From an uncultured Chitinophaga sp. (GTDB lineage Bacteria > Bacteroidota > Bacteroidia > Cytophagales > Cyclobacteriaceae), in assembly GCA_902168205.1 (NCBI GenBank), contig CABHOK010000003.1, positions 1,488,001-1,552,000 of the forward strand: 64,000 nucleotides of DNA, in the 5' to 3' direction. Position 1 is the stretch's first letter; every line of letters begins with the position of its first letter. Position numbers and translations under genes: made by a program. Positions 6,943 through 43,026 of this stretch are shown piece after piece. Below the pieces are notes generated by a model that did not search any database, was not told where the DNA came from, and was given only the letters and a program-made list of their open reading frames with translations.

Positions 6943-7187
6943 CGTTGTTTTAAGATCATATACCCCTCTTTCTTTATTGCCAACGTTTTTGTCCCTGCTT
7001 ATTTCCGCAAGCAACGCACACAATAAGGTTATTTTTAGCAAAGCTTTCAGTTTAATGACTATACCGTTTTATCTGGTAGAATTTGGTCAGAGGAATTTCT
7101 CTTTCGGTCTTATCAATAGAAGTATAACGTGTAAATTCATAAAAATGACGATTCGGAAGGCAACCCTTTTTTTTAACCCTGCGTCTG

Positions 7188-28400: not shown

Positions 28401-31400
28401 TGAAGTAAAGGTATAATTGTCCGAAGGTGCAGTAACAGGTATGGCGTTGTTGATCTTGTAGGAATAGGTGGGTGTACCGTTTTTAACAACGATACTGATC
28501 TCTCCGTTGCTGAGACCGTTGCAGAGTAAGCTTCGTGGTGTTGCTTCAAAGGATACAGACGGATTAACGGTATACTCAACCGTAACAACGTTGGTACAGC
28601 CTGTGGGTATATATTCTACTTTTACATAGAGTGGTATCTGGTTCTCTACGGTATACTTTTTCAAATCTGCATCCGGAATAATATCGGCACTATTCAGCGT
28701 CTGACTTTTATACCAGGTGAGTCTTGTATCTGCTTTACCGGCATTCGGTGTTATCGATGATTCGAGTGCCTTCAGGTCTGCGGTATAAGTGTTTCCTCCC
28801 GGAACATCAGAACAAACCGTCTTTTCAATTTTTGTCGCCTCGGGAGAAGGATGCACCGTTACAGTAAAGGTAATGGCAGATCCTGAACAGTTTCCTTCCG
28901 TTGCCGGGTTTGTACCGATCACTTCAAATGTTACAGTGCCATCAATAGTTTTTGAATTTTGTACCAGCAGATTATCAATATCACCCTGACCTGAGTTTGA
29001 ACCGGTGGAGATATAAGCATCAGCATTCTTTACAGTCCATGTAAAGGTTGCGTCAGTATTGTTCGTGGATTCAAAAGGTACGTGTAACAGATCGTTGTTA
29101 CAGGCCGCAAAGTCAGTTACAGGCTTGATGATTGTGTTCGGATGAACGGTAACTTTTACCTGGCGCGGTGCTCCGGCACAATTCAGTTGTGTGCTGTACG
29201 GACGAATGGTATATATTACTGTACTGTCGGCACCGTTGTTGTTTTCCCACTTATGGTTTTTAATGGCGTCCGAATTATACTGTGTAGTGGCATCGGGTGT
29301 TTGTATAGCCGAAATAGCCTTTACACCAGCTGGTACATATATACTTTCGATGATGAACTTGTCAGCCGGGAACGTGTTGGATGCGGATGACAGAATGATT
29401 CCTGTCTCAATATCGCTACATAATTCTTTGTCGAGTGTAGGGTGAAGCTGCGGTTCCGGTTTGATCGTGAGCGTAATGATCTCGGCATCTCCCGGACACT
29501 CTTTGCCGGTGGCTCCTATATTTACCGGGATCACCGTATAGTTCACCGGTAACGGAACTGCTTTCAGGTTTTGGAACTGATCGTTCACGATAGCATCATC
29601 GGCAACACCATTGCCTTTGGTCGGGCCAACGATCGGTATGATCTCGGTGGCGAAGCTCGCATTGGTGATGTTATATTTGTTGATCGGAACCGGGCTTGAT
29701 GGATCAGCCTGGAATTTTACTCCGGTCGCGTAATCACTGCAGACGTCTGCATCACCATTCAACATGATCGGTCGCTTGTTTACCCGTATCGTATCTTTCG
29801 CCAGCGGACTAACGCATATCGAATTACTTTCCTGTACACTGATCACAACATCTTCCGTAAGGAAATTTACCAGGATCTTGTTTGTTGCCTGACCATCGGA
29901 GATGAATGCTCCGCCCTGTGAGTTGTCGGACAACTTACGTACTTCCCAGCTATAGGATGAAGCCGGGTAGTTGTTAGGGGTTACGTTGTAACTGATGCCT
30001 TCATCATTTTCGCAGACCACCGAGTCGCCATGTATAGTGGGTTTGCCGGGAGTAGGAGAGACGAGTATCGCTTTCTTGGTAACAGGCGCGCTACATCCGT
30101 TCAGTTCAACCTGAACACTGATGGTATCGGCTATACCGTTAACACTGGCTGTAGGAAATTGCAGCAGTACAAAGAAATCGCTGTCCGTTCCGCCACCAAA
30201 AACTTTATAGGACGAAGTCGGTATATTCCAACGATACTTAACACCCTTTATAGGAGTGATCTGGTATATTTCAACGGCATCGCCCTGGCAAACAGATTCT
30301 CTTCCGAAGATCTCGCTGCTTGCAGGAATATTTTTTATTGTCAGTGTAAGCTCAGCATAGTCTGCGCAGGATGGTTTGTCTTTGAATGTTATCCGTGCAT
30401 AATATTTAGCGCTACCGTTTACCTCGACCGGAGACGTTATCTCGAAGGTATTGTTTTGTGCATCGAACAAGGAGGGATACCAGGCAACAGCGACATTATT
30501 GGCACCACCGGTTACTTCATTTACATACGTTGCATCATTCAGATCTATATTCGATACTTTGTTGCTGCCGGGAGAATCTTCACAAAATGCAACGGTGGCA
30601 TCTTTCGCTACCGGCAACGCGCGCACGTCTACCGTAACCATAGCATCGTTGGTACAATTGGAGGATATATCGCGAATGCGGGCCAGGTATATTTGTCCCG
30701 AAGTAATATTGGTTTCCTGTATCGTTGGATCGGTAACCTGCGTCCCCGCAGGAGGTGTCCCATTTCTATACCAGGTTATACTTCGATCTGCTGCAGGTAA
30801 TGTAGTAACAGAATCCTCATAGTTTGTTAAGAGTATATTACCGGTAACCGGTGCACCGGCTGGAGGCTCTTCGCATATACGTGTGGTAAATGATTTGGCA
30901 TCCGGAAGTTTTGCACGTGTAAGTGTAATCGATGAAGGATCGGATACACATCGGCCGCTTGCGCTGGTGAGCGTCCAGGTAACGAGTACACTGCTGGGGG
31001 CAGCGGTTAATCCACGCACGGTTGTTTGTGGATTTGTTTTATCATCAAACGTAACGCCTGCCACGCTTGTTGTCCATGCACCCGTGGCGTTGTAGGTTGC
31101 CGGATCTGCATTTAACTGAACAAAGCTCTCGCAGATGTTGGGTATATCAATGCCTGCGTTGGCAACAGGTTTGCGGTCTATATTTATCTTTACTTCTTCC
31201 TCTACAGATGAACATGAACTCGTAGCGGCTGGCGTAGCAACCAGTTTTATCCGGATCGGTACACCGGCATCATAGTCTTCCTGCGTTGGTGTATAGGTTG
31301 CTTCAATGGTGATCGGTCCGCTGCCGCTTTGTGTGCTGGCAGATATAGTTCCGTTACCGGATATATTCTCCCAATGACCACCGGTAGCACCAGCTGAAAC

Positions 31401-33938
31401 TATACCAGATACTTTTATCGGCGTGAAGTTTTTTGGATCGAGACAAACACTGTCAATATCCGGAGCGCTAGTAATTTCAGCGGGCTCATCAAATGTAATA
31501 ACAACATCGTCTGTTTTCTCGAAGCATGAAGCACCACCACTGGTGATCGTCCAGCGAAGGGTATAGGCACCATATATATATGGTGAACCTTGCAGATTTA
31601 CAGGTGATTTTGCCGCGCCTGTATTATCTATCTTGATAGAACATGCAGCACCGGAACAACTGCCCGGACCACTTACTACACTCCATTTACCCGTTCCGAT
31701 CGAAGGTGTATTTCCTTCCAGCACGGTAGACGGGCCACATACCTGTTTATCAGCACCGGCAGTCGGATCGGTAGGGTCCGTTCCAAAGTCGATGACAACA
31801 TCATCGTAACTGGAACATGAACCACTGCTTACCGTCCAGCGGAGGGTATAGGCGCCAGCGTTCGCAGATGGAACCGATATGTAGGCATTGCGATCGGTTT
31901 TGTCGGTGCTAAACGTTGGCTCCGGTAATCCGGAAGGTACACTTCCTATATAAGACCATTTGCCTGTGCCCGGTGATGGATCGCTTGCCGCAAGGGGATT
32001 GGAATTCAGCGTTGCCCCGGTAAGCTGACATACAAACTGATCGGGACCTGCATTGGCCGGTAGCCCGGGGTTCGTAGATACTTCAACCTGCTCTTCCGAA
32101 CTGACTGCTTCGTTGCAGGGGCCGTTATCTACTACAGCACGGAATTTATATACACCTGGTGAAAGTACACCGGGCGATATGGTAGTACCTTTTCCAAGCG
32201 ATGCGTCTTCAGTAAAAGCACCGCCGTTTACGGATACTTCCCAGCGCAATACATCGCCTATATTTCCGGAGAGTGTAATGTTACCGACTGGTGATGTCTG
32301 GCATACATCCGGTGCAGATGACAGTGTTCCGCCAACCGATGGATTGTATACGCGTATAGTATATGATTTTTCTTTAAAGCAGGAAGGCGAGCTTGCATAT
32401 TGTTTGCGTACCGCTATAGTCCTGTCAACAAATCTTTGTCCTGATGAGAAATTTACGTTGAACTTGAACGTGGCGGTTACATCCGTGCTCGAAGCCAGTG
32501 TAACTCCCGATGAACCCGTCCATGCATATTGTGTGGCTCCGCCTACCGGTTCCGTTGTAAGCGGTGGCATGGTAATGGTAACCGTGGTTGTACTGGTGGA
32601 TGTACTGTTACATACTTCAGTTGGTATGGTGCTTACCGGGTCTGGCAGCATTATATCTTCGCGTATCGTTCGCTTCACCAGTACCTTCGGACTTTCACAA
32701 TTCAACCCGTTGGCTACGTTGGGCTGATAGCTGGCCCACACTTTATATACACCCGGAGTTTTTTTATTTACCCAATCCGGATGCGAAGTAATCGGCAATG
32801 ATGTAGATGTGCCCGAAGTAATTAACGCCCCGGGGGAGTCAGTTGCTCCCGGCACATTTTTATACCAGTTAACAATATACGTGGGCGGTACACCGGATAT
32901 AGCAAAAGCATTCGGTGTGTTGTTGTAGCAAACAGTTTGATCAGCCGCAGGTGTTGGCGGAGGCGGAGCGCTGACGATACGTACGGTAGCAGTTTTCTCC
33001 ACGGGAGGGTTATCTCCGTTTACAAAGTCTCCGTTAACCGGCACGAGTGGTGATAACGGGTTATTGGAGTATGGATTACAGAAGTTCCAGTAACGAACTT
33101 TCAGTTCGATCACATCACCAACCTGAGGATAGCCCGCACCAAATCCTCCGGGTGCTGTAATCTCGAGCGAAGGTCTTTTATTATTGGCAATCACGGCAGA
33201 GCTGCTCATGTAGTTAACTCCGCGTGTATCCTGGTAGTTGGTGAGTATATCTGCGCCACCGGCACCGGTAACGGGTATACCATCTACTTTCAGGTTTGGT
33301 ATCTTCGGCACAGCAGTGCCGGTGTTGTAAACAATCTGCTGCCAGCGGTTCGCTATATTCGGACTCTCCACTGCATCAGGTCCGGGAGGGTGTATGTAGT
33401 TTGGATTACAGTTCCAGTTGGTTGCATCCTGAAACACCACTGATATATCAACACCTGCGCAGACCTGGTGTTCATTGGTTCCGGTAACGGGTGAGATTAG
33501 CTGTACCTTACCTCCGTTATATTCATCGGTTCGCCAAGAGGCAATGCGTTGTACCTGGCGTGTTATAGGGCATAGTGATCCTTTATACCGTAAGGTCATC
33601 ACAACGACAAACTCGCAGTCGCTGTCTACAGGAAAGGTATGTGTAACATCAGCACTATAGGAAGTTTGCCCTTGTGCCTGTGGTAGTATTGAATTTTTTC
33701 CATCGCCCCAGTCAATGTATATATCTACAGCACCTGCAGGTACAGGTGTTAAGAACCCTACATTGTATGTAACGCGCGCGCTTACCGGTGAGCAGAAACC
33801 TGCCGGAAACTTATTACTACCCAGTGATGAAACAGTGGGGAGTCCTACGCATTGTGCTAGAGCGTCATGATTTACAACGGTAGGGATAAGCGCTGAGGTA
33901 ACTAGAAACAAAAAAATCGATCGTACAGATTTAAGCAT
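25461..33938 (-). CDS. Giant SprB-like surface adhesin with type B type IX sorting domain
   Basis: The frame is open from 34001, but a TACCTTTG promoter box at 33999-34006 argues for the ATG at 33938, which starts a signal peptide (MLKSVRSIFLFLVTSALIPT to ALAQ). The 2825-residue protein is made of many Ig-like and PKD-like beta-sandwich repeats, with several near-identical modules of the pattern KW-x-GSG and YTLRWT-SGG around residues 650-850, SprB-type repeats (about 1810-2060; KDATDGEVKVTFTGG), PKD domains (about 2410-2680; YSWNFDDGTISDETEPKHLY) and a C-terminal type B sorting domain (VPNAFTPNVNG, IYDRWGNMIYE, GDITLIR). Such proteins are moved along the surface during gliding or act in adhesion. 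It begins the operon with PorP/SprF. Confidence 0.9.
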   Translation of the reverse strand: MLKSVRSIFLFLVTSALIPTVVNHDALAQCVGLPTVSSLGSNKFPAGFCSPVSARVTYNVGFLTPVPAGAVDIYIDWGDGKNSILPQAQGQTSYSADVTHTFPVDSDCEFVVVMTLRYKGSLCPITRQVQRIASWRTDEYNGGKVQLISPVTGTNEHQVCAGVDISVVFQDATNWNCNPNYIHPPGPDAVESPNIANRWQQIVYNTGTAVPKIPNLKVDGIPVTGAGGADILTNYQDTRGVNYMSSSAVIANNKRPSLEITAPGGFGAGYPQVGDVIELKVRYWNFCNPYSNNPLSPLVPVNGDFVNGDNPPVEKTATVRIVSAPPPPTPAADQTVCYNNTPNAFAISGVPPTYIVNWYKNVPGATDSPGALITSGTSTSLPITSHPDWVNKKTPGVYKVWASYQPNVANGLNCESPKVLVKRTIREDIMLPDPVSTIPTEVCNSTSTSTTTVTITMPPLTTEPVGGATQYAWTGSSGVTLASSTDVTATFKFNVNFSSGQRFVDRTIAVRKQYASSPSCFKEKSYTIRVYNPSVGGTLSSAPDVCQTSPVGNITLSGNIGDVLRWEVSVNGGAFTEDASLGKGTTISPGVLSPGVYKFRAVVDNGPCNEAVSSEEQVEVSTNPGLPANAGPDQFVCQLTGATLNSNPLAASDPSPGTGKWSYIGSVPSGLPEPTFSTDKTDRNAYISVPSANAGAYTLRWTVSSGSCSSYDDVVIDFGTDPTDPTAGADKQVCGPSTVLEGNTPSIGTGKWSVVSGPGSCSGAACSIKIDNTGAAKSPVNLQGSPYIYGAYTLRWTITSGGASCFEKTDDVVITFDEPAEITSAPDIDSVCLDPKNFTPIKVSGIVSAGATGGHWENISGNGTISASTQSGSGPITIEATYTPTQEDYDAGVPIRIKLVATPAATSSCSSVEEEVKINIDRKPVANAGIDIPNICESFVQLNADPATYNATGAWTTSVAGVTFDDKTNPQTTVRGLTAAPSSVLVTWTLTSASGRCVSDPSSITLTRAKLPDAKSFTTRICEEPPAGAPVTGNILLTNYEDSVTTLPAADRSITWYRNGTPPAGTQVTDPTIQETNITSGQIYLARIRDISSNCTNDAMVTVDVRALPVAKDATVAFCEDSPGSNKVSNIDLNDATYVNEVTGGANNVAVAWYPSLFDAQNNTFEITSPVEVNGSAKYYARITFKDKPSCADYAELTLTIKNIPASSEIFGRESVCQGDAVEIYQITPIKGVKYRWNIPTSSYKVFGGGTDSDFFVLLQFPTASVNGIADTISVQVELNGCSAPVTKKAILVSPTPGKPTIHGDSVVCENDEGISYNVTPNNYPASSYSWEVRKLSDNSQGGAFISDGQATNKILVNFLTEDVVISVQESNSICVSPLAKDTIRVNKRPIMLNGDADVCSDYATGVKFQADPSSPVPINKYNITNASFATEIIPIVGPTKGNGVADDAIVNDQFQNLKAVPLPVNYTVIPVNIGATGKECPGDAEIITLTIKPEPQLHPTLDKELCSDIETGIILSSASNTFPADKFIIESIYVPAGVKAISAIQTPDATTQYNSDAIKNHKWENNNGADSTVIYTIRPYSTQLNCAGAPRQVKVTVHPNTIIKPVTDFAACNNDLLHVPFESTNNTDATFTWTVKNADAYISTGSNSGQGDIDNLLVQNSKTIDGTVTFEVIGTNPATEGNCSGSAITFTVTVHPSPEATKIEKTVCSDVPGGNTYTADLKALESSITPNAGKADTRLTWYKSQTLNSADIIPDADLKKYTVENQIPLYVKVEYIPTGCTNVVTVEYTVNPSVSFEATPRSLLCNGLSNGEISIVVKNGTPTYSYKINNAIPVTAPSDNYTFTSLSGGNYTIVVEDLKGCRATSVVSLFEPTALVADVKLKKAISCFQAKDGEIETIVTGGTAPYTEYRIVQSNELDADNDGIFQNLGVGSYNVRVKDTNGCFATSEMLTMDQPTPVEINTVSVATDDDGYNLTCKDATDGEVKVTFTGGTPAASGYTAVLSKVNDATTSATLQGTDSVRFKDLGKGTYTIVIKDGNNCASRPSAATILNPPALNGGSIGVDQSVCLNTPAEKITELSPPFGGVENYRYQWQQQQPPDGEAPTTDNWIDIPASANGNSNEYTPEVLSQTTYFRRLVWSVSTRTGKYCEVKGTDEREMVKITVNQPPVVRLDAPSNLCYGKPGQIKLIVESGAIPITYSYTDGTNTVLNEEGGKTSVVVLPEITEDKTYKFYDIVDGNGCKGDDQEASISVVNVSTDFSIVGSDAQCPGNDFEFKWNVEPDVKYEWVWSRDSSTVIREDSLAAGEHTIRHGFAAGSPNNSTVYNVKLKASNFLCTPDPTTREITIYPLIALNVLPGDTSLCSGQTITFQDQSLGIDHGTWYYHVPGTTDRLEEKPAPAAEVSYVMTNTSSQEPIIYEVVYQAANAEGCTGEYKKEVVVYHSATADFTYDNVPPLTAGLSTITFTNTSSTINTNDFEYIWDFDDIKATPPTANGAGPYTVEYHAAGTKEVRLTVTNIAARNAGETCSSTKMEKITILLPAVKAAFTATPLAACFPANIEVTNLSPGADAFHWTLYNGSTLADSSSLRNPVFRVSKPGKYSIALKAEFRSTGQSDSTSIRGIEVFDVPTANFELRPSIVYIPDMETQTFNFSTGANQYSWNFDDGTISDETEPKHLYTLEGKYTITLVAGFDNGSKDVNGDGTLDGNIVCYDTAQHQVVAIQGGSLKVPNAFTPNVNGSTHGNGVPGSGTFNDVFMPIVKGAEEYTMQIYDRWGNMIYETVDKNQGWDGYDRNGKLMPAGVYVYKMVIRLSNGQRTTKVGDITLIR

Positions 33939-33998
33939 AACTTTCGCTGTATTTAAAAAGTATATATAGGGCCTTACCTGATACAGAGACCATTTTGG

Positions 33999-34006
33999 CA
34001 AAGGTA
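33999..34006 (-). promoter_or_regulatory. TAnnTTTG promoter box for the adhesin operon
   Basis: On the minus strand this reads TACCTTTG, a perfect Bacteroidota -7 box. Transcription would begin near 33992, about 55 bases before the ATG at 33938. It is flanked by short arms CCTTACC (33972-33978) and GGTAAGG (34003-34009) that could form a hairpin or an operator. Confidence 0.55.
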
Positions 34007-34050
34007 AGGTGAGATGCTATACACGAATTCCGTACTACACAGATGTATAT

Positions 34051-34144
34051 ATCAGTATAATTACGGATCGGTTAAGTAAGATGTGCGGATATATTTGAGA
34101 ATATCAGGAAGTTGACGTTGGTATATTTTTGTCGAAATATTTTG
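34051..34144 (+). promoter_or_regulatory. Regulon site 1: inverted repeat plus TTTG box at 73 bases
   Basis: The inverted repeat at 34051-34068 reads ATCAGTA-TAAT-TACGGAT (one arm mismatch). A TTTG begins 73 bases after its last base (34141-34144). Perfect TAnnTTTG boxes also occur at 34090-34097 and 34124-34131 in this AT-rich stretch, so the promoter position is less certain here than at sites 2 and 3. The site also lies 45 bases upstream of the minus-strand adhesin box and could serve either direction. Only tiny frames follow on the plus strand. Confidence 0.5.
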
Positions 34145-34295
34145 GTAATGATGAAAAAAGATCGTGAAGATGTGAATTTTTAGAACCGTCAGCGATGCAA
34201 TAACCGATGTAAGATAAATTGCCATCGTGGATGATGCACCGATTGTGCCATGTAGCCGTATTCGGGTTTGTTGGAACTTGTGCACGGATTTAACT

Positions 34296-34390
34296 CTCTG
34301 TATTTCTACGGATATAGCTCAGCGTAAAAATTGTGTTCTGCTTTAGGTAAAGAAGCTTATCGTGAGACGTTTGCTTCCGGTCTATCTTTG
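34296..34390 (+). promoter_or_regulatory. Regulon site 2: inverted repeat plus perfect TATCTTTG box at 74 bases
   Basis: The arms are CTCTGTA (34296-34302) and TACGGAT (34307-34313) with spacer TTTC; the left arm departs from the consensus at two positions. The perfect box TATCTTTG is at 34383-34390, its TTTG starting 74 bases after the repeat. Transcription near 34397 would precede the 34-residue membrane peptide at 34463. Confidence 0.55.
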
Positions 34391-34462
34391 TGGCTGTGTA
34401 TCTTTTATTTAGGAAGATATACAACGAGGTTGAATCGATAAAAAAAACAAACGAATAACAAT

Positions 34463-34567
34463 ATGCAGTCAAACGGTAACATGAACAGAGGCGATAGAGA
34501 GGTGATCTCGATCATGTTTGGTGTAGGTGTTCTTTTTTTGATTTTTCTTTTGATGGTTTTTTCCTGA
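34463..34567 (+). CDS. Candidate 34-residue single-pass membrane peptide
   Basis: An ATG-started frame of 35 codons encodes a hydrophilic N-terminus (MQSNGNMNRGDREVIS) and one strongly hydrophobic helix (about residues 17-33, GVGVLFLIFLLMVF). It starts about 65 bases downstream of a perfect promoter box controlled by site 2, and it ends before site 3, so promoter, frame and next control site fit together. I do not recognise it. Hydrophobic peptides of this size often modulate a membrane complex. It could also be a chance frame in a regulatory RNA. Confidence 0.4.
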   Translation: MQSNGNMNRGDREVISIMFGVGVLFLIFLLMVFS

Positions 34568-34593
34568 TGCGGGGAGTGATGTAACGATGGTAT

Positions 34594-34687
34594 ATCCGTA
34601 AAAATACGGATATCGATTCGCGTAAAATCCGGTTGTTACCTGCTGGAAAATCCTGACACTGCCCCTGTCGCCTTCAGGGTAATTTTG
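34594..34687 (+). promoter_or_regulatory. Regulon site 3: perfect inverted repeat plus perfect TAATTTTG box at 73 bases
   Basis: The repeat is perfect: ATCCGTA (34594-34600), AAAA, TACGGAT (34605-34611), and symmetry extends two more bases each side. The box TAATTTTG at 34680-34687 is a perfect -7 element whose TTTG starts 73 bases after the repeat. It overlaps the TTG at 34685, showing that the downstream small gene must start later, at the GTG at 34754. Confidence 0.65.
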
Positions 34688-34753
34688 TTTATAGCTCTGC
34701 TGCGATTCCAGCCGGATGAGAGTATATACAGAAATCTGAAGGAGATAAGTATT

Positions 34754-34948
34754 GTGGGAAATAATTCAGTGACCGATATGCCAGTAAAAGGGAAACCAGA
34801 TAAGCCTCCGCGGGTTGTTGTTGTCAGGAAGATAACCGAGTATGAAGCGAAACTTCTTTTTTCAGTCTATAAGAAGCACGCTGAAATTGTTGAGCAGATC
34901 GATCATGGTAAAACGTGGAAACGGACTGATGTAGTAGGAGAGGAGTGA
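34754..34948 (+). CDS. Small basic cytoplasmic protein of unknown function
   Basis: The frame is open from 34685, but the -7 box at 34680-34687 excludes that TTG. The GTG at 34754 is preceded at 9 bases by AAGGAG, a rare strong ribosome site for this phylum, and gives a 64-residue product; an ATG at 34778 would give 56. The product has a flexible start with VKGKPDKPPRVVVVRK and a helical part (TEYEAKLLFSVYKKHAEIVEQ), no signal peptide and no cysteine. I do not recognise it. It lies 74 bases before the SPOR-OmpA gene and may be co-transcribed with it. Confidence 0.5.
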   Translation: MGNNSVTDMPVKGKPDKPPRVVVVRKITEYEAKLLFSVYKKHAEIVEQIDHGKTWKRTDVVGEE

Positions 34949-35022
34949 GGCGTGCATGAAAAGCAGGAAGCGAAATGTAAAATCCCAATCAGTATAATTT
35001 TAGTATAGGAAGTTCTTTGAGT

Positions 35023-36243
35023 ATGAAATTTTTTAAGTCCGTACTACTCATGGCAATGAGTGTGATGATACACTTCAGTGTACAATCGCAGAATAATACA
35101 GAGCCTGATGTTATTGCCAGTAATCAATACTATGTTGTTATAGGTGCTTTTGCCGTTCATGATAACGCGACCAATTTTGTTAAGCATGCTTCTTCCCTGC
35201 AGTTACCTGCATCCTATGCCTTGAATACCGATAAAAATTTATACTACGTTTATGTACTTCGCACCGATGATCGCGAGAAGGCTGTTGAACAGGCGCAGCA
35301 AGTACGCCTGGAAGCTAACCTGACCGATACATGGGTTTATCATGGAGAGATATTGGATGCTCATGTTCTCACCGATGATAACGAAGATAAAATAACCATG
35401 ACCTCCGGTCCCTTAACAAATACAGCAACAGAAAAGAAACTGGAATCCTCAATTGTGAGTGTCGTTGCTACACCTGAACGCAAACCGGAAGCTGTTGTTG
35501 ATCGCGAGCCTGTTCGCGAATCTGCCAGTATTGATGAAGGTGAAGGAAAGCGTTTCTTGTTTCATGTATTCCGGGCGAATGATGGTGAAGCTGTCGAAGG
35601 AGATGTTGATGCGATTGATGTAGTTCGTTCGAGAAAGATCGGCAGCTATAAATCAAATATGCCGGTGCGCGTTGCTGAGCGCAGTGATCTCACCGATGTA
35701 TCGTTTATATGCGAAGTGTTTGGATACAGACGCGCACAGAATACCATTAACTTTCAGGATCCCCTGGCGATGGATGGTGTCTCACAAGATTCCAGTCAGA
35801 ATATAGTTGTTCCATTTGAATTGGTACGATTGAAGAAAGGTGATATCGCGGTGATGTACCACGTTTACTTTTTTAAAGATGCCGCGATCATGCGACCAGA
35901 GTCTAACTACGAAGTAAACAGCCTTGTGGAAATGCTGAAGGAAAATCCGAAGTATAAAATAAAAATTCACGGCCATACCAATGGAAGTGCTTACGGCAAG
36001 ATCGTCTACATGGGTAAATCTGATAATTTCTTTTCATTGTCCAATACACGCGAAGGCTTCGGTTCCGCCAAAGAACTTTCCGAAGAGAGAGCTCGTGTTA
36101 TCCGTAATTTCCTCATCAGTACCGGTATCGAAAAAGAACGAATGGCAATCAAGGCGTGGGGCGGTAAAAGACCTGTTCATAATAAGAACAGTGCCAAAGC
36201 GCAGGAAAACGTTCGCGTGGAAATTGAAATACTGGAGGACTAG
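35023..36243 (+). CDS. SPOR and OmpA-domain envelope protein
   Basis: The ATG at 35023 begins a signal peptide (MKFFKSVLLMAMSVMIHFS to VQSQ). A SPOR-like domain follows (about residues 35-110; QYYVVIGAFAVHDNATNF, YYVYVLRTDDREKAVEQA), then a variable middle and a C-terminal OmpA domain (about 280-405; HVYFFKDAAIMRPESNYEVN, IKIHGHTNGS, LSEERARVIRNFLISTGI). Both SPOR and OmpA domains bind peptidoglycan, so the protein should anchor envelope machinery to the wall. Within the OmpA domain an insertion of about 18 residues (around YGKIVYMGKSDNFFSLSNT) separates the usual motifs. Proximity to the adhesin operon suggests a link to type IX or gliding functions. Confidence 0.85.
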   Translation: MKFFKSVLLMAMSVMIHFSVQSQNNTEPDVIASNQYYVVIGAFAVHDNATNFVKHASSLQLPASYALNTDKNLYYVYVLRTDDREKAVEQAQQVRLEANLTDTWVYHGEILDAHVLTDDNEDKITMTSGPLTNTATEKKLESSIVSVVATPERKPEAVVDREPVRESASIDEGEGKRFLFHVFRANDGEAVEGDVDAIDVVRSRKIGSYKSNMPVRVAERSDLTDVSFICEVFGYRRAQNTINFQDPLAMDGVSQDSSQNIVVPFELVRLKKGDIAVMYHVYFFKDAAIMRPESNYEVNSLVEMLKENPKYKIKIHGHTNGSAYGKIVYMGKSDNFFSLSNTREGFGSAKELSEERARVIRNFLISTGIEKERMAIKAWGGKRPVHNKNSAKAQENVRVEIEILED

Positions 36244-36277
36244 TCTTCTTTTATTCTTCTCATCTTTTTACTATACT

Positions 36278-36372
36278 ATACGTGTTTTTACGGAGTGGTA
36301 TCTAGGTGTACATAGTACACAACTCTGTTTATAAATACCGTGAGAGAAGCGTCTGGCTTTTAACGTTTTTTG
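36278..36372 (+). promoter_or_regulatory. Regulon site 4: degenerate inverted repeat with TTTG at 74 bases
   Basis: The arms are ATACGTG (36278-36284) and TACGGAG (36289-36295) around TTTT. TTTG at 36369-36372 begins 74 bases after the repeat; the full box (GTTTTTTG) lacks the TA. The thioredoxin-like gene starts at 36399, 26 bases later, consistent with a short leader. Confidence 0.5.
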
Positions 36373-36398
36373 TGGCGTCTATTTTTTACTAAATCACC

Positions 36399-37652
36399 AT
36401 GAAACAAAAAATTGTAACAGTCATTGCTTTAATCACTTGTCTGTTCGTTGCTGGTGCAGCAACAGCAGGCTCAACTAAATCTACCATCAAATCCGGGGTA
36501 TGGAGAGGCGTATTGGAAATGCAGGGTCTGGAGTTACCCTTCAACTTTAAAGTAACAACCGATGCAGCCGGTGGATACGATATCCAGATCATGAACGGAG
36601 AAGAGCGTTTACGTCTCGATGAAGTACGTATCACAGGCGATTCTATCAATATAGCGCTTCATATTTTTGATGCTAACATCAAAGCCAAAATATTCGGACA
36701 AGGCGATTCGCTTAGCGGAGTATTCATTAAGAATTATGAACAACATTATCAAGTTCCTTTTCATGCAGCTCACGGAAAAGGTTATCGCTTTGCAAAAGTT
36801 AATTTCAATGCGAACGAACCTGACTATAGCGGTAAATATGCTGTGAAGTTTATTCACGAAACCGATACATCCGATGCTATTGGTATTTTCAAACAACAGG
36901 GTAACCACATAACCGGTACATTTCTGACTACAACAGGTGACTATCGTTACCTGGAGGGAAGTGTAGTCAATGGTATGATGAGTCTCAGTGCATTTGATGG
37001 CAACCACGCGTATCTGTTTACTGCCAACAAAGATGGAGAAGGAAAATTACTTGGTGAGTTTTTCTCGGGCCTTACCTGGACAGAATTCTGGACAGCGGAG
37101 AAAGATGAAAACGCGAGTCTGCCAGATCCGGAGTCACTTACGTACCTGAAACCTGGCTATGAAAAAATTGAATTCTCTTTTCCTGACATCGCTGGGAAGA
37201 AAGTAACATTTCCGGATGTTAAATATACCGGTAAAGTTGTCGTGCTGCAGATCTTTGGTACCTGGTGCCCAAACTGTATGGACGAAACAGTTTTCTTAAG
37301 CCATTGGTATAATGTAAATAAAGGCAGAGGTGTTGAAATTATAGGTCTTGCTTACGAACGTAAAAGTGATTTCTCGTATGCCAGCGGTCGTGTTCGCAAG
37401 ATGATTGACGTGTTGAAAGTGCCGTATGCATTTGTAATAGCAGGAACCAACGATAAAGAGAAAGCATCGCAGACATTACCCATGCTGAACAAGGTAATGG
37501 CATTTCCGACAACGATCATCATCGGTAAAGATGGTAAAGTAAGAAAGATACACACTGGTTTCTCCGGACCTGGTACTGGTCTTTATTACGATCAATATAT
37601 CGAGCGATTCAACGAGACTGTTAATGCCTTGCTGAAAGAAAGTGTAAATTAG
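36399..37652 (+). CDS. TlpA-like periplasmic thiol-disulfide oxidoreductase
   Basis: The 417-residue protein has a signal peptide (to about residue 23), an N-terminal beta-rich domain (about 28-240) common in Bacteroidota TlpA proteins, and a C-terminal thioredoxin fold (about 265-415). The active site is CPNC in QIFGTWCPNCMDET, followed by AFPTTIIIGKDGKV with the cis-Pro. It should reduce or isomerise disulfides, or deliver reductant to cytochrome maturation, in the periplasm. It is preceded by site 4 of the proposed regulon and followed by a bidirectional terminator. Confidence 0.88.
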   Translation: MKQKIVTVIALITCLFVAGAATAGSTKSTIKSGVWRGVLEMQGLELPFNFKVTTDAAGGYDIQIMNGEERLRLDEVRITGDSINIALHIFDANIKAKIFGQGDSLSGVFIKNYEQHYQVPFHAAHGKGYRFAKVNFNANEPDYSGKYAVKFIHETDTSDAIGIFKQQGNHITGTFLTTTGDYRYLEGSVVNGMMSLSAFDGNHAYLFTANKDGEGKLLGEFFSGLTWTEFWTAEKDENASLPDPESLTYLKPGYEKIEFSFPDIAGKKVTFPDVKYTGKVVVLQIFGTWCPNCMDETVFLSHWYNVNKGRGVEIIGLAYERKSDFSYASGRVRKMIDVLKVPYAFVIAGTNDKEKASQTLPMLNKVMAFPTTIIIGKDGKVRKIHTGFSGPGTGLYYDQYIERFNETVNALLKESVN

Positions 37653-37682
37653 GATAGCAGAATACTGTATAACTCATTAACT

Positions 37683-37723
37683 AAAAAGCCTCGTTCCGGG
37701 TATATTTCGGAACGAGGCTTTTT
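37683..37723. terminator. Bidirectional intrinsic terminator
   Basis: Sixteen-base perfect arms (37683-37698 and 37708-37723, core GCCTCGTTCCG) with a 9-base loop are flanked by A5 and T runs, so both the TlpA-like gene on the plus strand and the Gly-rich gene on the minus strand can end here. Confidence 0.93.
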
Positions 37724-37755
37724 TTAGTTTAGGTATATAGCAATATATAAATTGA

Positions 37756-38559
37756 TCAGGAGCCAGTCTTGTTGTATATAAAATTACCTTCCTGTCCGTT
37801 CTTGCCTCGCTCACCATGCTTGCCATTGGTGCCGCGCTTTGAAGTTTGCATAGCTCCAGTTCCGATAGCGCCTCCGCGCCCCCCTTCACCACCATAGCCA
37901 GAGTATCCACCGTGCAGGTTAAATTTGATTACTTCGCTGGAGAGCAAATTAGCAGGGCATTGTGCGCATCGAAATGTAAATGTACCACCGGCACCACCAT
38001 CGCCACCATTTCCGCCATTGCCACCATTTCCTCCGTTGCAATCGCAGTGGATCGTGCTCTTGCTTCCATTGCCGCCACTCCCACCGCTTCCGCCATCACC
38101 ACCGTTTCCTCCATTCAGTCGTAACAGTAAAGGATACATGTTCGATTCAAGCTGTGTTACTTCAAGTGTAAGATTCTTTCCTCGTTCACCATTCGCACCA
38201 TTTTTTCCATCAGCACCGGGTTTACCATGGTTACACGGACCTTCTGATATATCTGCATCTTTAGAAGGCCTTGAGCTTGTGCCGTGCGTGCCACTGCCAA
38301 TAATCCAGCATTGCTTACCGATCTTTAGCTTGTTTATTTTGATATAGGATGCCGAAGTACCGTGTTTCAGAACCAGGTAGGAGGAATCATGCATGATAAG
38401 CTCATCGAGAATCAGCGTGTCTCCCTTTAATTCGTACGAACTCTTTTTCTGAATTTCAAGATGCCGGTTTTGCGCCATCAGATCTTGGCAGACCGTAACG
38501 ATCATGAACAACAGGATATAGCGCAGCAATCCTGATCGCTTTAGGTAATTGAATCGCAT
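37756..38559 (-). CDS. Secreted glycine-rich, collagen-like protein
   Basis: The 267-residue product has a signal peptide (to about residue 30, DLMAQ), a short beta-rich part resembling the start of secreted plug or pectin-lyase-like domains, and two Gly-rich regions. One has collagen-type G-X-Y triplets (about 110-125, GKPGADGKNGANGERGKN); the other is a tandem GGNGGDGGSGG-type block (about 145-185), interrupted by a CDC motif, with another Gly stretch near the C-terminus. Two CxxC-like pairs (HCDC, CAQC) may form disulfides or bind metal. The function is unknown; a surface or matrix role is plausible. Site 5 lies about 140 bases upstream but its best promoter faces away. Confidence 0.65.
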   Translation of the reverse strand: MRFNYLKRSGLLRYILLFMIVTVCQDLMAQNRHLEIQKKSSYELKGDTLILDELIMHDSSYLVLKHGTSASYIKINKLKIGKQCWIIGSGTHGTSSRPSKDADISEGPCNHGKPGADGKNGANGERGKNLTLEVTQLESNMYPLLLRLNGGNGGDGGSGGSGGNGSKSTIHCDCNGGNGGNGGNGGDGGAGGTFTFRCAQCPANLLSSEVIKFNLHGGYSGYGGEGGRGGAIGTGAMQTSKRGTNGKHGERGKNGQEGNFIYNKTGS

Positions 38560-38695
38560 AAGTAAATTTTGTTAGGATTTAGTAAAGGTAGCCAGCGATT
38601 GTTGTTCCGCTTGTAGGGGAATATACCTACGTGGTTGTATGATAAATACAGATGTAGATAGGTTCTTAGATATAACTATTCCCAATCATTTTTAT

Positions 38696-38790
38696 ATCCG
38701 TATAAATACGGACATGTATTTAGTAATAAAATCGGTGGCCCTACCATTATTAATACAGAGAACAGATGATTTAGAAGATGCTTTACTTTG
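38696..38790 (+). promoter_or_regulatory. Regulon site 5: inverted repeat with TTTG at 74 bases
   Basis: The arms are ATCCGTA (38696-38702) and TACGGAC (38707-38713) around TAAA, with one arm mismatch. TTTG at 38787-38790 begins 74 bases after the repeat; the box reads TTACTTTG, with TA one base closer than usual. Transcription would start near 38797 and run to the hairpin at 38884, with no protein gene between. Confidence 0.55.
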
Positions 38791-38796
38791 TGCTAT

Positions 38797-38916
38797 AGAA
38801 TAATAGATAGTGTGATAGTAAATGTTGTTGTGTTACAATGATTGAAGATTTCTCCGCTTATTTCGATAGTGGGGTTTGGGTCGGGGGCGCACAGATATGT
38901 GTGCCCCTTTTTTTTG
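38797..38916 (+). ncRNA. Candidate small RNA (about 120 nt)
   Basis: The region 38560-39002 lies between two minus-strand genes, yet holds a plus-strand intrinsic terminator and, 100 bases before it, a promoter-like box at the fixed distance from site 5. The implied transcript is about 120 nt. A 38-codon frame at 38838-38954 runs through the terminator, so it is unlikely to be the product. The 5' end is inferred from the box position. Confidence 0.4.
38884..38916 (+). terminator. Plus-strand intrinsic terminator without a known gene
   Basis: Arms GGGGCGCACA (38884-38893) and TGTGTGCCCC (38898-38907), one G-T wobble, enclose GATA and are followed by nine T residues (38908-38916). The T tract fixes the direction as plus, opposite to both flanking genes. 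Confidence 0.85.
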
Positions 38917-39002
38917 ACCAAAAAAATGATCGCCTGGATAACAATAGGCGTTAATTGATCATATACTACTGGGCTAAATGCGCTGATCGACTGCCGAGAA
39001 GC

Positions 39003-42000
39003 TTATGCCGATATAGGAATGGTGAAAGAGAATTTGCTTCCCTTGGTAAGTTCGCTCTCGATGTATAACTGACCGGAGTTCTTTTCAATAAACTCCTGGC
39101 AAAGACTTAATCCTAGACCAACACCGCGTTCACCTTGCGTTCCTGTGGTGGAGAACGTTTCTTTCTGCAGAATTTTTGAAACGTCTTCTTTTCGGATTCC
39201 TTTGCCTGTATCGGTGATGTATACCATAATATATTTCTCTTTTATATGCGCACCCATCTCCACGCGGCCCGTGGTGTCGGTAAATTTTATGGCATTGTTC
39301 ACCAGGTTACGGATTACCAGTTTGATCATGTCTTTGTCAGCGTAAACATCGGCATGATTTTCAAATGTATTGGTGAGTACTATATTTTTACGGGTTGCCA
39401 GCGGTCTGAACAGGCGGAAGTTTTCCTCAATGATTTCATGAATATCAAATGCTGAAGGTTTAACTTTCACACCTTCCATCTGGTTGCGGGCCCAATGTAG
39501 CAGGTTGTCAGTAAGGCTTACGGTATAGCGTACGCTTTCCTTGAGGTCAGGCAAAACACTTTTGAAATCACCTTCCGTTATAAAGGTATATTCCAGCAGG
39601 TTGAGCATTTGTTGTACCTGGTGAATGGGACCGCGCAGGTCGTGCGATATTATGGAGAATATTTTGTCCTTGGTAAGATTCAGGTTTTCGAGCGATTCAG
39701 CCTGCATTGAAATCTCTTCGTTTTTATTCAGAATTTCCTGGTTTTTGGCGATAAGATCTTTTGTCTTTTCATTAACCAAGCGTTGAAGTAATTTCTTCTG
39801 TAAACGTATCTGTTGCGTATAGTAATATATAATTGTCCAGATGATAACCGTTAATAAAATAAAGTATAGTACGTAGGCCCACCATTTCTGGTACCACGGA
39901 AATTGAATCGTAAACGTGAACACCGCGGGTGCGCTGATAACGTCATATATATTTTTAGAACGGACTAAAAACGTATAGGTACCTCCAGGTATATTTGTAT
40001 ATGCAGCCTCACGACTGCTCGACCAGTCAGACCATTCATTTTCAAAACCTTCAAGTTTATGCTGGTATACTGTCTTTTCAGCATCTTCATAGAATGAACT
40101 TGAAAAGTCGAACTTCAGGCTATTGTTTCTATAAGCAATTGCCGGCTGATGTGAATTCTGGTTACCCGTATAGATCAGCGAATCTTTTGCCCAAACGTTA
40201 TGGATCGAAGTATAAACAGGATCGTCATAAAATGTTTTTTGACTTGGATTATAGTGAAGCAACCTCAGTTCGTTACCGATAAAAACATCTTCCGGGCCGG
40301 TTATTAAAATGGGGGCGCGTACACCAATGCGCAAGTCGCGAATAGGGATAGCAACTTTGTTGAATGGAGTGAAGTATACCTTATAGGTTCCATCGTGTTG
40401 ACTTTTAAATACTCCTGCTGTTTCTTGCTGGCCGGGCTTTGCTCCCCAGAAATAAATATCTCCTTCTGCACTTTCGGCCACACTATATATACAGAAATTG
40501 TCAAGTAACGTATGTGTTTTGGAGTCTGGTTCGAACCGGTCTTTAGCCTTGTTATACCTGTATAGCCCATCGGTTGTGGTTACTACAACGCTGCTGTTTA
40601 ACTGATAAATGCGATTGTTCAGATTTGATGGAAGACCATGACGCTTGTCATAAAATGATACCGATATGACTTCATCCATCTCTTCGTTTAACAGAATCTT
40701 GTAAATTCCTTTTTGTCGATGACTGCTCCACAGGTATCCGTCCTCATCTTCCGCCAGAAAAAATCCTATGTCGTCAAAACCTTTAATCTGATTTTTTTTC
40801 CATACTTCCTTTTCTTTCCTTAGAAGAAAGAGCCCGTCTACTGCCCCCATGATCATCCGGTCGGTATGATTTCGAATCTTAGACAGAACGTATGCTTCTG
40901 TATGGCTAACGATCTGTATAGCCTTTGAGCCCTTCAGTTCGTAAACACCGGTATTGTGCGCAGCATACAGATGCTCACCGATGTTTAGAAAATTTGAGCA
41001 GCCTCCTTTCTGAATAGGTATAAATGTGTCGGGAGTATTTTTATAATAAAGATCGCTGGCGGTACCAACATATAGATCCGAACCAGATTTTCCCAATGAT
41101 ACAATTTGGTTTTGTAAACCGTTTCGCTTGTCGTAAAAGGTGAGTGGCGAACTGGCAATAATCTGGATAAGAGCATTATTGGAAGAGATCCATAAATTGC
41201 GTTGCATGTCCTTAAACAAAATGCCGGGCGTTACAAAATCGCCCAACGCAGTAACATCCAGTGTAGATGTTATATTGCCGTCTCCGTTCATGAAGACAAT
41301 CTCCTCGTCAGATGAGATTGCGATCATACCGTTATCAAGAGCCCTGAGTACCGTAAAATCCTGTCCCCGTGCATGAGACTTTAATTCATTTGGGAATAAT
41401 TTTAGTTTGCCATTTGCACCCGGTGTGATGTCAAGGGTCCATAGCTGCTGCTGTTGATCAAGGATAATAAGTGAGCTTATACCATAGGCATCAATCCAGC
41501 GTATTGATATTTTATTGAGCTCATCACTAAAATCTTCGTGTTCAAATTTTCCTTCTTTGTAAAGCAACATTTCATTATGCCTTACCAGGTAAAGCCGGCT
41601 TTGAACTTTCACGAGCCCCTGGTTAGAAATATCTATAGGATAGAATTTTTTATCCTCATAGCGGAGTATAAAATCATCGGTTTGGAAAAAAATGGCATTT
41701 TTGTAAACTGCAATAAGATATATACTTGAATTATTGTAGGGGGCAGGAACCTGATCCAGAAGCGAGTGGTATTTATATTGTCCCGTTGAATCTTTGCGGA
41801 AATATCCCAGATCCGAATTGGTTCCTACATATATATTACCGAGTGTATCCGGAGCCATAGACATGATAATATCTTTGTTGGGAAGTGCGAACATATCCCA
41901 TTTGGTACCGTCATATTTTAATACGCCTTCGTTGTTGGCAATGAAAATATTGTCCTGAAAGTCGGGTTTGATATACCAGTTTTGAAGTGAAGCTGCTTTA

Positions 42001-42098
42001 TATACATCGGATGTATGATACTGCACAAAGGGCTGTTGTGCATGAGCAGTTATGCCCATGAAAAGAGACAGGTATAGGATTAAAAAAATACGCTTCAT
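39003..42098 (-). CDS. Two-component propeller sensor histidine kinase
   Basis: The 1031-residue protein has a signal peptide (to about residue 20, AHAQ), an extracytoplasmic double beta-propeller of Reg_prop repeats (about 25-650), a Y_Y_Y domain (about 655-725; YQHKLEGFENEWSDWSSSRE, YTNIPGGTYTF), one membrane helix (about 735-757), a coiled coil, a HisKA domain (IFSIISHDLRGPIHQVQQML, His near 818) and an HATPase (RNLVNNAIKF, DTGKGI, GVGLGLSL). Unlike classical hybrid two-component systems it lacks the receiver and AraC output domain, so the signal must leave through another protein. The receiver gene 36 bases upstream is the obvious candidate. Confidence 0.92.
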   Translation of the reverse strand: MKRIFLILYLSLFMGITAHAQQPFVQYHTSDVYKAASLQNWYIKPDFQDNIFIANNEGVLKYDGTKWDMFALPNKDIIMSMAPDTLGNIYVGTNSDLGYFRKDSTGQYKYHSLLDQVPAPYNNSSIYLIAVYKNAIFFQTDDFILRYEDKKFYPIDISNQGLVKVQSRLYLVRHNEMLLYKEGKFEHEDFSDELNKISIRWIDAYGISSLIILDQQQQLWTLDITPGANGKLKLFPNELKSHARGQDFTVLRALDNGMIAISSDEEIVFMNGDGNITSTLDVTALGDFVTPGILFKDMQRNLWISSNNALIQIIASSPLTFYDKRNGLQNQIVSLGKSGSDLYVGTASDLYYKNTPDTFIPIQKGGCSNFLNIGEHLYAAHNTGVYELKGSKAIQIVSHTEAYVLSKIRNHTDRMIMGAVDGLFLLRKEKEVWKKNQIKGFDDIGFFLAEDEDGYLWSSHRQKGIYKILLNEEMDEVISVSFYDKRHGLPSNLNNRIYQLNSSVVVTTTDGLYRYNKAKDRFEPDSKTHTLLDNFCIYSVAESAEGDIYFWGAKPGQQETAGVFKSQHDGTYKVYFTPFNKVAIPIRDLRIGVRAPILITGPEDVFIGNELRLLHYNPSQKTFYDDPVYTSIHNVWAKDSLIYTGNQNSHQPAIAYRNNSLKFDFSSSFYEDAEKTVYQHKLEGFENEWSDWSSSREAAYTNIPGGTYTFLVRSKNIYDVISAPAVFTFTIQFPWYQKWWAYVLYFILLTVIIWTIIYYYTQQIRLQKKLLQRLVNEKTKDLIAKNQEILNKNEEISMQAESLENLNLTKDKIFSIISHDLRGPIHQVQQMLNLLEYTFITEGDFKSVLPDLKESVRYTVSLTDNLLHWARNQMEGVKVKPSAFDIHEIIEENFRLFRPLATRKNIVLTNTFENHADVYADKDMIKLVIRNLVNNAIKFTDTTGRVEMGAHIKEKYIMVYITDTGKGIRKEDVSKILQKETFSTTGTQGERGVGLGLSLCQEFIEKNSGQLYIESELTKGSKFSFTIPISA

Positions 42099-42134: not shown

Positions 42135-42935
42135 TTACTGCAGGATGTTCGTAAGCTGCATACCTACCTGGGCGGTGTTAGCTTTGTATAGGTACTTGCA
42201 AAGAATCCTGAAGAGCTCAGCACTGTTAACAGGCTTCAGCAAACAACTGCTGGCACCTGCACTCAGGGCATCTGCTATATTTTCTTTCAGCACCGGGGCT
42301 GTAAGACAGCTGATAATTGGTATATATTTGTCGAACTCCCGGATTTTTGCTGTCGCTATATTTCCATCTTCGCCAAGAATCAGGTCATCCATCAACACTA
42401 GGTCAACGTGTTGCTCCGATACCAGGGCCACGGTGTCCTCTCCATTTTCTGCCAGCAGCGTTGTGCATCCCCAGCCTTCCAACATGGATTGAAATAGCAT
42501 CGCGTTGATTTTACTGTCTTCCACCACTAATACTTTTTTACCTTCAAACGGGCGCTTGGTATTTTCGGTAGGTGCATTGATGAGGCGGAACGGAAATGTA
42601 ATTTTCTTCTCGTTGCCTTTGCTGAGATCGATCTTCATATTCTCGCGGTCGTACCCGGTAATGTCGATAACGATCATCGTTACATTGTCGAATTGATCTT
42701 TTCGCGTGATCTCAATAAAGACTTCGTTGATGTCAAAGGATTTAGCTAAAAACAGGCAGCCATGCTTGATAGCGCCCACCAGGCGATCGTGGTTGCCCAA
42801 ATAGACATCGTCTAACTGAACGTCTATGTTCAGCTTCAGCAATACCGTACGATACCGGTTTAGTTTATTGGCCAGTTTATAGCAGGATTCACGTAGGCTA
42901 AATTCTTCCATAGGCAGATTGTGCTTTTGCTGCAT
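42135..42935 (-). CDS. Receiver protein with degenerate kinase ATPase domain
   Basis: The ATG at 42935 is preferred to a TTG at 42959. The first half (about residues 8-130) reads like the ATP-binding half of a histidine kinase (FSLRESCYKLANKL, NHDRLVGAIKHGCLFLA, TMIVIDITGYD) but lacks the Asn of the N box and the GXG motifs, so it should not bind ATP as a kinase. The second half is a receiver (KKVLVVEDSKINAMLF, phosphoacceptor in LVLMDD, SCLTAP, LLKPV); the loop after the Asp is altered (DDLILGEDGN in place of LQMP). There is no DNA-binding domain. It lies 36 bases before the propeller kinase and probably takes part in its signalling. Confidence 0.8.
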   Translation of the reverse strand: MQQKHNLPMEEFSLRESCYKLANKLNRYRTVLLKLNIDVQLDDVYLGNHDRLVGAIKHGCLFLAKSFDINEVFIEITRKDQFDNVTMIVIDITGYDRENMKIDLSKGNEKKITFPFRLINAPTENTKRPFEGKKVLVVEDSKINAMLFQSMLEGWGCTTLLAENGEDTVALVSEQHVDLVLMDDLILGEDGNIATAKIREFDKYIPIISCLTAPVLKENIADALSAGASSCLLKPVNSAELFRILCKYLYKANTAQVGMQLTNILQ

Positions 42936-43008
42936 TCTCCTTGAATCAAATCTCTGCAAGTATAGGGGCTTATTTCAAATGATACATCCGTGATGAATTG
43001 AGCGTTAT

Positions 43009-43026
43009 ATCAGTAAAAATACTGAT
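43009..43026 (-). promoter_or_regulatory. Regulon site 6: perfect inverted repeat ATCAGTA-AAAA-TACTGAT
   Basis: The arms at 43009-43015 and 43020-43026 are perfect, with the AAAA spacer of site 3 and one base changed in each arm. It stands about 75 bases upstream of the receiver gene. No TTTG occurs at 73-74 bases in either direction; the nearest minus-strand box is TATCATTTG at 42976-42984. It could regulate the receiver/kinase pair differently from the other sites. Confidence 0.5.

Follow-up and report, generated by a model that had tools for sequence, protein, structure and literature searches.

Phased copies of a 7-4-7 palindrome define a lineage-specific promoter family, likely the regulon of a LuxR-type response regulator, in a member of the Cyclobacteriaceae

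A palindrome of the form ATCCGTA-N4-TACGGAT recurs at set distances before promoter boxes in the 64,000-nucleotide window analyzed here, i.e., positions 1,488,001 to 1,552,000 of contig CABHOK010000003.1 (GenBank assembly GCA_902168205.1), which comes from an uncultured Chitinophaga sp. placed by GTDB in the Cyclobacteriaceae. An earlier note on this DNA had described five copies of the repeat and proposed one promoter design with an activator bound near −90. That a lineage-specific promoter family exists is near certain. We read the repeats as operators of a single autoregulated regulon, confined to this lineage and ComA-like in geometry, under a LuxR-type response regulator that we call RR1, and we put the probability of this reading at about 0.64. 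Its basis is computed: the motif, its spacing, extra operator copies, conservation, neighboring genes, and co-occurrence with RR1.

Two promoter layouts are seen. In class B the palindrome lies 73 or 74 bases before the −7 box, and in class A it lies 49 or 50 bases before it. Seven genus members were compared, namely G000 (the genome that holds the window, a 7.3-Mb assembly) to G006, of which G004 is Ohtaekwangia koreensis; individual loci carry L numbers. The palindromes and boxes of the window are as follows.

33999–34006, minus strand: −7 box TACCTTTG of the class A promoter of a giant gene
34051–34068, both directions: palindrome ATCAGTATAATTACGGAT, class A toward the giant minus-strand gene and weaker class B toward the plus strand
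34141–34144, plus strand: TTTG 73 from site 34051, without TA; a doubtful promoter
34296–34313, plus strand: class B palindrome CTCTGTATTTCTACGGAT; G001 counterpart at L323:8925, spacing 74
34383–34390, plus strand: −7 box TATCTTTG downstream of site 34296
34594–34611, plus strand: perfect class B palindrome ATCCGTAAAAATACGGAT; G001 counterpart at L323:9220, spacing 73
34680–34687, plus strand: −7 box TAATTTTG downstream of site 34594
36278–36295, plus strand: weak class B palindrome ATACGTGTTTTTACGGAG upstream of a TlpA-like gene; TTTG at 36369–36372, without TA
38696–38713, plus strand: class B palindrome ATCCGTATAAATACGGAC preceding a predicted small RNA; TTTG at 38787–38790, without TA
43009–43026, minus strand: class A palindrome ATCAGTATTTTTACTGAT, kept in G001 at L323:17937
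42957–42964, minus strand: box TATACTTG of the 43009 promoter, with CTTG replacing TTTG

The five repeats first described are all present where they had been placed, with 1, 2, 0, 3, and 1 mismatches to the consensus (sites 34051, 34296, 34594, 36278, and 38696, respectively). From the last base of the repeat to the start of TTTG the distances are 73, 74, 73, 74, and 74, respectively, and a perfect TAnnTTTG is found at two of the five, 34296 and 34594, as had been said. With up to three mismatches allowed, the window contains 14 sites versus 2.56 expected from shuffles, a number reached in none of 100 shuffles, and TTTG stands at 73 or 74 in 5 of 28 site-orientations versus 0.38 expected (P ~5e-5). 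Within the set of five, the plus strand of site 34051 is the weakest case; the site is more convincing on the minus strand, where the palindrome is found 49 bases before TACCTTTG, an arrangement retained in O. koreensis. Site 34051 faces in both directions, including that of the giant gene, which encodes an SprB-like type IX secretion system (T9SS) protein.

A scan of the whole genome had been set as the test that could overturn the proposal, and it instead bore it out. At no more than two mismatches, 62 sites match the palindrome, whereas only 14 match the same pattern written in reverse. When TTTG was required at exactly 74 bases and up to three mismatches were allowed, 28 matches (15 + 13) were found versus 6 (3 + 3) for the reversed-pattern control; at exactly 73 bases the numbers were 30 (14 + 16) and 4 (2 + 2), the 73 and 74 lists overlapping in sites. 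We also surveyed spacing at 50 of the 62 sites, taken with spacing disregarded, in both orientations and at offsets of 1 to 297. TTTG occurred on average 0.57 times per offset, and the top offsets were 73, 74, and 50, with four each; offset 49 had three, equalled by 57, 199, and 254. At a spacing of 49 or 50, a full TAnnTTTG is present in six of seven site-orientations. The single design of the earlier note thus stands for the 73/74 layout, which is a preferred distance; the second class at 49/50 and the extra weak operator copies described below had been missed. The position of the −7 box is fixed and its letters are partly kept, which fits the Bacteroidota sigma-A pattern of TAnnTTTG at a fixed position. 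A sigma-54 promoter was considered and dropped, as no −24/−12 pattern was visible by eye.

Class B promoters carry more than one operator copy. A score matrix built from the strong sites was scanned along the promoters, disregarding peaks at shifts below 18, which overlap the strong site. In 22 class B promoters, weaker copies appeared at shifts of +24 (8.9 standard deviations [sd]) and +47 (7.7 sd), and both peaks exceed the 99% point of the shuffled maximum, the shuffles preserving base composition only. Five of these 22 promoters had come from the sequence profile described below; when the scan was redone on the other 17, +47 (8.3 sd) and +24 (7.4 sd) were the best shifts outside the strong site. 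The +24 copy also exceeds the 99% shuffled level in eight class A promoters. In class B a weaker copy, with GTA at +11 to +13, follows the palindrome, and a third block lies at about +36 to +39. Taken singly, most of the middle and proximal copies match poorly, so the array belongs to the promoter set and not to each promoter. The clearest array is that of L140, the second promoter of an operon for CheW and a methyl-accepting chemotaxis protein (MCP) (G000:C3:537333), in which the third copy is a full palindrome. For Flavobacterium, PMC9723704 places the TAnnTTTG box at −12 to −5; on that placement the class B copies are centered near −90, −66, and −43, and the position near −90 proposed for the repeat is borne out.

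The sites and their spacings recur in related genomes, as had been asked of them. All six window palindromes (the five and 43009) have counterparts in G001, where the counterparts of the five keep their TTTG offsets; that of 34051 also keeps 49 on the other strand, and that of 36278 is identical in all 18 letters, with a spacing of 74. Where the giant gene meets the OmpA gene in G004 and G005, one class A site (49) and one class B site (74) are present as well; there the counterpart of 34051 retains the minus-strand 49-base arrangement only, and no counterpart of 36278 was found at up to three mismatches. We examined 20 of the 27 sites listed for G001–G005 at no more than one mismatch, picked by eye before their spacing was seen and coming from G001, G002, G004, and G005. 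TTTG stood at 49, 50, 72, 73, or 74 in 11 of the 20 versus 1.6 expected (P ~9e-8, an optimistic value, since offset 72 was added after the relatives' data had been seen); one of the 11 (L196) is without TA. The other nine gave no spacing signal, and at least four of them lie inside long open reading frames (ORFs). Three class B sites found in G001 and G005 have a spacing of 72.

Profile searches divided the genus members into two groups. A sequence-only class B profile was built from 16 own promoters, leaving out 34051 on the plus strand because its TTTG aligned badly. At E ≤ 10, it matched 51, 56, 51, and 58 times in G000, G001, G004, and G005, versus 5, 7, and 4 times in G002, G003, and G006, where the best E-values were 0.17, 0.06, and 0.48. 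The matches in G000 and G001 are not independent of the training set; in G004 and G005, neither of which was used for training, the best E-values were 7e-9 and 4e-10. A class A profile from eight promoters gave 46, 46, 47, and 51 matches in G000, G001, G004, and G005, and 4, 3, and 4 in G002, G003, and G006, the genomes without the family; here too the G000 and G001 counts depend in part on the training set. The CheA homologs of G003 and G006 had no site with up to three mismatches upstream. Outside the genus, most genomes searched for the palindrome at no more than one mismatch were at control level. Counts above control were seen in G010 and G030 (4 vs 1 in each), G031 (3 vs 1), G032 (3 vs 0), G051 (5 vs 0), and G040 of another family (11 vs 3); 8 of the 11 in G040 are copies of a single sequence, ATCCGTATCAGTATGGAT, in one orientation or the other, which is probably an unrelated dispersed repeat.

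The best candidate for the protein that binds these sites agrees with the NarL/FixJ kinship that had been suggested for the repeat arms, being a receiver protein with a LuxR-type helix-turn-helix (HTH).

G000:C17:65735–66376, minus strand: RR1, a 214-amino-acid (aa) LuxR-type response regulator with its own class B site

RR1 combines a receiver (PF00072, 1.7e-15) with a GerE-type HTH (PF00196, 2e-18), and its closest solved structures are VraR and NarL. Its orthologs are 99%, 97%, and 97% identical in G001, G004, and G005, while the best matches in G006, G002, and G003 are paralogs at 43 to 44%. Among the best 80 of 305 matches in the species collection, three records (UBA5867, nbed49b3, and O. 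koreensis DSM 25262) reach at least 97% and the next-best stands at 44%. The distribution of RR1 coincides with that of the promoter family: near-identical copies occur in G001, G004, and G005, and none was found in the three genus members lacking the promoters. The site of RR1 itself is identical letter for letter, with TTTG at 74, in all four orthologs, and none of the other 26 homologous loci examined has a site of up to three mismatches in the 450 bases upstream. In G004 (L327:3841–7321), RR1 is preceded by two YfiR-like (DUF4154) genes and the gene of a PAS histidine kinase, in an order shared by G001 and G005 (counterparts L326 and L232); in G000, one YfiR-like gene and the kinase are seen beside RR1 within the sequence examined. 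Among those of the genes behind own-genome sites that were tested for domains, only RR1 has a DNA-binding output domain. We hold it likely, at somewhat under two in three, that RR1 binds the palindrome.

Several observations weigh against this reading. Nine of the 14 window sites have no TTTG at 73 or 74 on either strand, and 37 of the 50 surveyed genome sites have none at 49–51 or 72–75 on either strand. Some of these 37 lie inside ORFs or have GC-rich spacers, and palindromes of that kind (e.g., L008, L013, L014, L194, L197, and L200) look like chance matches; also among the 37 are L009, L010, L086, and window site 43009, family promoters with CTTG, TTTA, or ATTG boxes. Exact TAnnTTTG is found, by eye, in only 8 of 16 class B rows. 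Some sites, namely 34051 on the plus strand, L136, and L146, are without a clear ORF behind them, and for these and L007 there is no clear ORF or no function was assigned. The profile searches scored 150 candidates per genome, with rough E-values, and the test at up to three mismatches missed the Che site of G005, which the profile found, so the negatives of that test are soft. As for RR1, CheA is 89%, 72%, and 71% identical to that of G000 in G001, G004, and G005, versus 57 to 58% in G003 and G006; the four genomes with RR1 look like one clade, and its co-occurrence with the promoters may thus be a single event. A second LuxR response regulator (a 45% group, L208–L211) is present in the same four genomes. 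A 43% paralog is 97.6 to 100% identical across the four and 93 to 95% in G006 and G003, so the conservation of RR1 is not special, and the recognition helices of several paralogs are alike, such that their comparison fails to single out RR1. Finally, a gene with a cyclic-nucleotide-binding domain (L192:3036–3611, minus strand, in G004) lies ~400 bases behind a class B profile match, and RR1 is therefore not the only regulator-like gene near such a site; its product is possibly a Crp-like second regulator. For these reasons RR1 is held as likely only.

The same points feed the strongest alternative, which keeps the promoter architecture and changes the binder: the 45% LuxR regulator, the cyclic-nucleotide-binding protein of G004, or a protein not found. 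We regard it as unlikely, though serious enough to be kept in view. The 45% group shares both the four genomes and a similar recognition helix with RR1, and co-occurrence across a single clade is weak proof of pairing. Yet the 45% group has no site of up to three mismatches within 450 bases upstream and is 83 to 94% conserved, versus 97 to 99% for RR1, while the ORFs read behind own site L146, possibly the counterpart of the G004 site, include no gene of the cyclic-nucleotide type. The lone DNA-binding output domain of RR1 among the domain-tested genes speaks on the same side.

That the operators serve a repressor, with the fixed spacing a relic of promoter descent and not of activation, strikes us as improbable. 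Repressors do often autoregulate, as RR1 would, but the strong palindromes, at −90 or −66, stand clear of the core promoter, and their phasing to the −7 box is held within 1 to 2 bases across unrelated genes. Many of the promoters have, by eye, a poor −33 region, which is typical of activator-dependent promoters. It is because of operator position and phasing that we infer activation over repression. Far less probable still is a dispersed repeat or mobile element carrying palindrome and promoter together. Many copies do have several blocks in common over ~100 bases, but the sequence between the blocks differs freely, orthologous copies retain their own spacers, and the sequence conserved upstream of the small RNA is mainly that of operator-like blocks and of the −7 region, and on these grounds the idea was rejected; no shared element gene was noticed, although no search aimed at one was made. 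Coincidence within one window, for which the loose arms (up to three mismatches) and the 14 such sites might speak, is barely credible and was rejected on the genome scan, the spacing test in relatives, and the profile searches.

The genes behind the sites, taken over the genome, include many with signaling and chemosensory functions, as judged from domains and similarity. Those of the window are the following.

25461–33938, minus strand (ORF 25461–34001): giant gene, 2825 aa from the ATG at 33938, with SprB repeats, PKD domains, and a CHU_C T9SS signal
34463–34567, plus strand: 34-aa peptide MQSNGN..., by eye a probable membrane peptide, with its own class B promoter; conserved in G001, G004, and G005
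34754–34948, plus strand: 64-aa small protein with its own class B promoter, conserved in O. koreensis
35017–36243, plus strand: OmpA + SPOR gene after the 64-aa protein gene
36399–37652, plus strand: TlpA-like gene behind site 36278
39003–42098, minus strand: Reg_prop/Y_Y_Y histidine kinase after the receiver-domain gene
42135–42959, minus strand: receiver-domain protein of 274 aa behind site 43009

The giant gene has a counterpart with a conserved site in G004 and G005, and the 64-aa protein has no Pfam match. The earlier note had named mainly small genes, a TlpA-like gene, and a possible small RNA as the regulated items. Genome-wide, the emphasis on small genes fails, and what lies behind the sites is largely signaling and chemosensory genes. 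A CheY-CheA-CheW-MCP-CheR-CheD operon lies behind L132, CheW-MCP behind L140 (and, by its sequence, behind L376 in G001), and an MCP behind L139. Reg_prop/Y_Y_Y proteins, mostly with a kinase ATPase domain, are found behind L112, L133, L141, and L145 (L361 and L375 in relatives), and GAF proteins, some with HAMP or CHASE3, behind L112, L134, and L138 (L360 in a relative). SpoIIAA-like small proteins of ~130 to 165 aa lie behind five own loci (L112, L113, L137, L142, and L369), at two of them as the second gene, and in relatives too. Two match PF11964 with E-values of ~2e-4 to 3e-4, below Pfam's cut-off, and the rest are linked to them by BLASTP; the presence of this family behind the promoters suggests partner-switch-like signaling. 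In O. koreensis, Pfam places a YfiR-like (DUF4154) gene and a TonB-type receptor behind the class B site L368, of which L372 is by eye the own-genome counterpart. Surface-type proteins comprise the giant protein of the window and that of L362, with a T9SS sorting domain, whose own-genome counterpart is likely L370 (by eye).

The last plus-strand site of the window stands before the candidate small RNA.

38797–38915, plus strand: predicted small RNA of ~119 nucleotides, ending in a GC-rich hairpin and a T run

This is a conserved noncoding sequence with both a promoter and an intrinsic terminator. Positions 38700–38917 are 83% identical to O. koreensis, versus 72 to 73% for nearby long coding matches. 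Conservation falls on the operator copies, on the −7 region, and on a 3′ part that ends in the terminator and is nearly invariant in four genomes; G004 and G005 have a degenerate form of the palindrome. The predicted fold beats shuffles (z −3.86, terminator hairpin counted), partly because of the terminator. Two-sided change is seen in 1 of 30 pairs, a minimal covariation that follows from the 3′ part hardly varying. An Rfam scan of 33900–39300 gave no match. Just upstream of the small-RNA counterpart in G004, a class B-like site (TTTG at 73) precedes a small protein (L324:12973–13560). Separately, the minus-strand class B promoter at L136 (site 7170–7187; G000:C3:1286169–1286186), with no clear ORF, is followed at ~100 to 300 bases by a hairpin and a T-rich stretch, by eye, and may represent a second small RNA of the regulon.

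From these results we propose a mechanism in which binding by RR1, activation, cooperativity, and kinase pairing are the conjectural parts. The PAS histidine kinase beside RR1, together with the neighboring YfiR-like proteins, would probably supply the input. Phosphorylated RR1 would dimerize and then bind the strong ATCCGTA-N4-TACGGAT site. In class B promoters that site would lie near −90 and the weaker copies near −66 and −43 would probably be filled cooperatively, while in class A the strong site would itself lie near −66. The promoter-proximal RR1 dimer would contact sigma-A RNA polymerase at a TAnnTTTG-like −7 box with a poor −33 region. The targets would be chemosensory proteins, sensor kinases, SpoIIAA-like proteins, surface proteins including the SprB-like T9SS protein, and the candidate small RNA, and RR1 would raise its own level by positive feedback.

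Known systems resemble this design in part. The 7-2-7 sites of NarL in Escherichia coli are heptamers with TAC/GTA bound well upstream of the start, and the sites here share that likeness; in NarL sites TAC is outside and the gap is 2 bases, whereas here GTA/TAC are inside and the gap is 4. PorX, of the PorXY–SigP system of Bacteroidota, is not known to be a LuxR-type protein. PorXY–SigP is likewise reported to be a two-component control that touches T9SS-related output (PMC4800418 and PMC5005315), but an extracytoplasmic function sigma factor is named for it (PMC4800418), whereas the promoters here have a sigma-A type box. The closest comparison is the ComA regulon of Bacillus subtilis, which the 4-base gap had brought to mind at the outset, and this comparison holds up (PMC4797271). 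There, a response regulator with a tetrahelical HTH recognizes an inverted repeat with a 4-base spacer upstream of the polymerase site, the arrangement also found here, and weaker degenerate half-sites downstream are required in vivo for ComA. The differences are that the half-site is ATCCGTA and does not match TTGCGG; that the downstream unit of ComA is a direct repeat with a 5-base spacer (RE3/RE4) and here consists of palindrome-like copies at +24 and +47; and that phylum and −7 box differ, with 9 transcription units for ComA versus ~20 or more promoters here. Given the different half-site and, within what was tested, a different arrangement of the downstream copies, the promoters here are not of the ComA kind; by analogy, they probably work in a similar way.

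Searches of the open-licence literature turned up no operator or regulon described for any LuxR-type response regulator of this order, and nothing relevant on the motif, this regulon, or Ohtaekwangia regulators. Our broader reading, which we offer tentatively and at a little less than even odds, is that a clade-specific regulator governs a large share of the chemosensory and sensor-kinase genes, along with an SprB-like surface protein, through up to three in-phase, graded operator copies (−90, −66, and −43), of which the strong one can occupy either of two places; that positive feedback switches the sensor genes and the small RNA together; and that regulator and promoters arose in one branch of the genus. 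If the reading is true, it would show which chemosensory, kinase, and surface genes are co-regulated in gliding-type bacteria and would provide a candidate master regulator with its kinase, a candidate small RNA that is conserved, and a type of promoter whose graded, phased operators, up to three in number, follow a logic open to simple mutation; a regulator and its many sites would then also have one narrow phylogenetic range in common.

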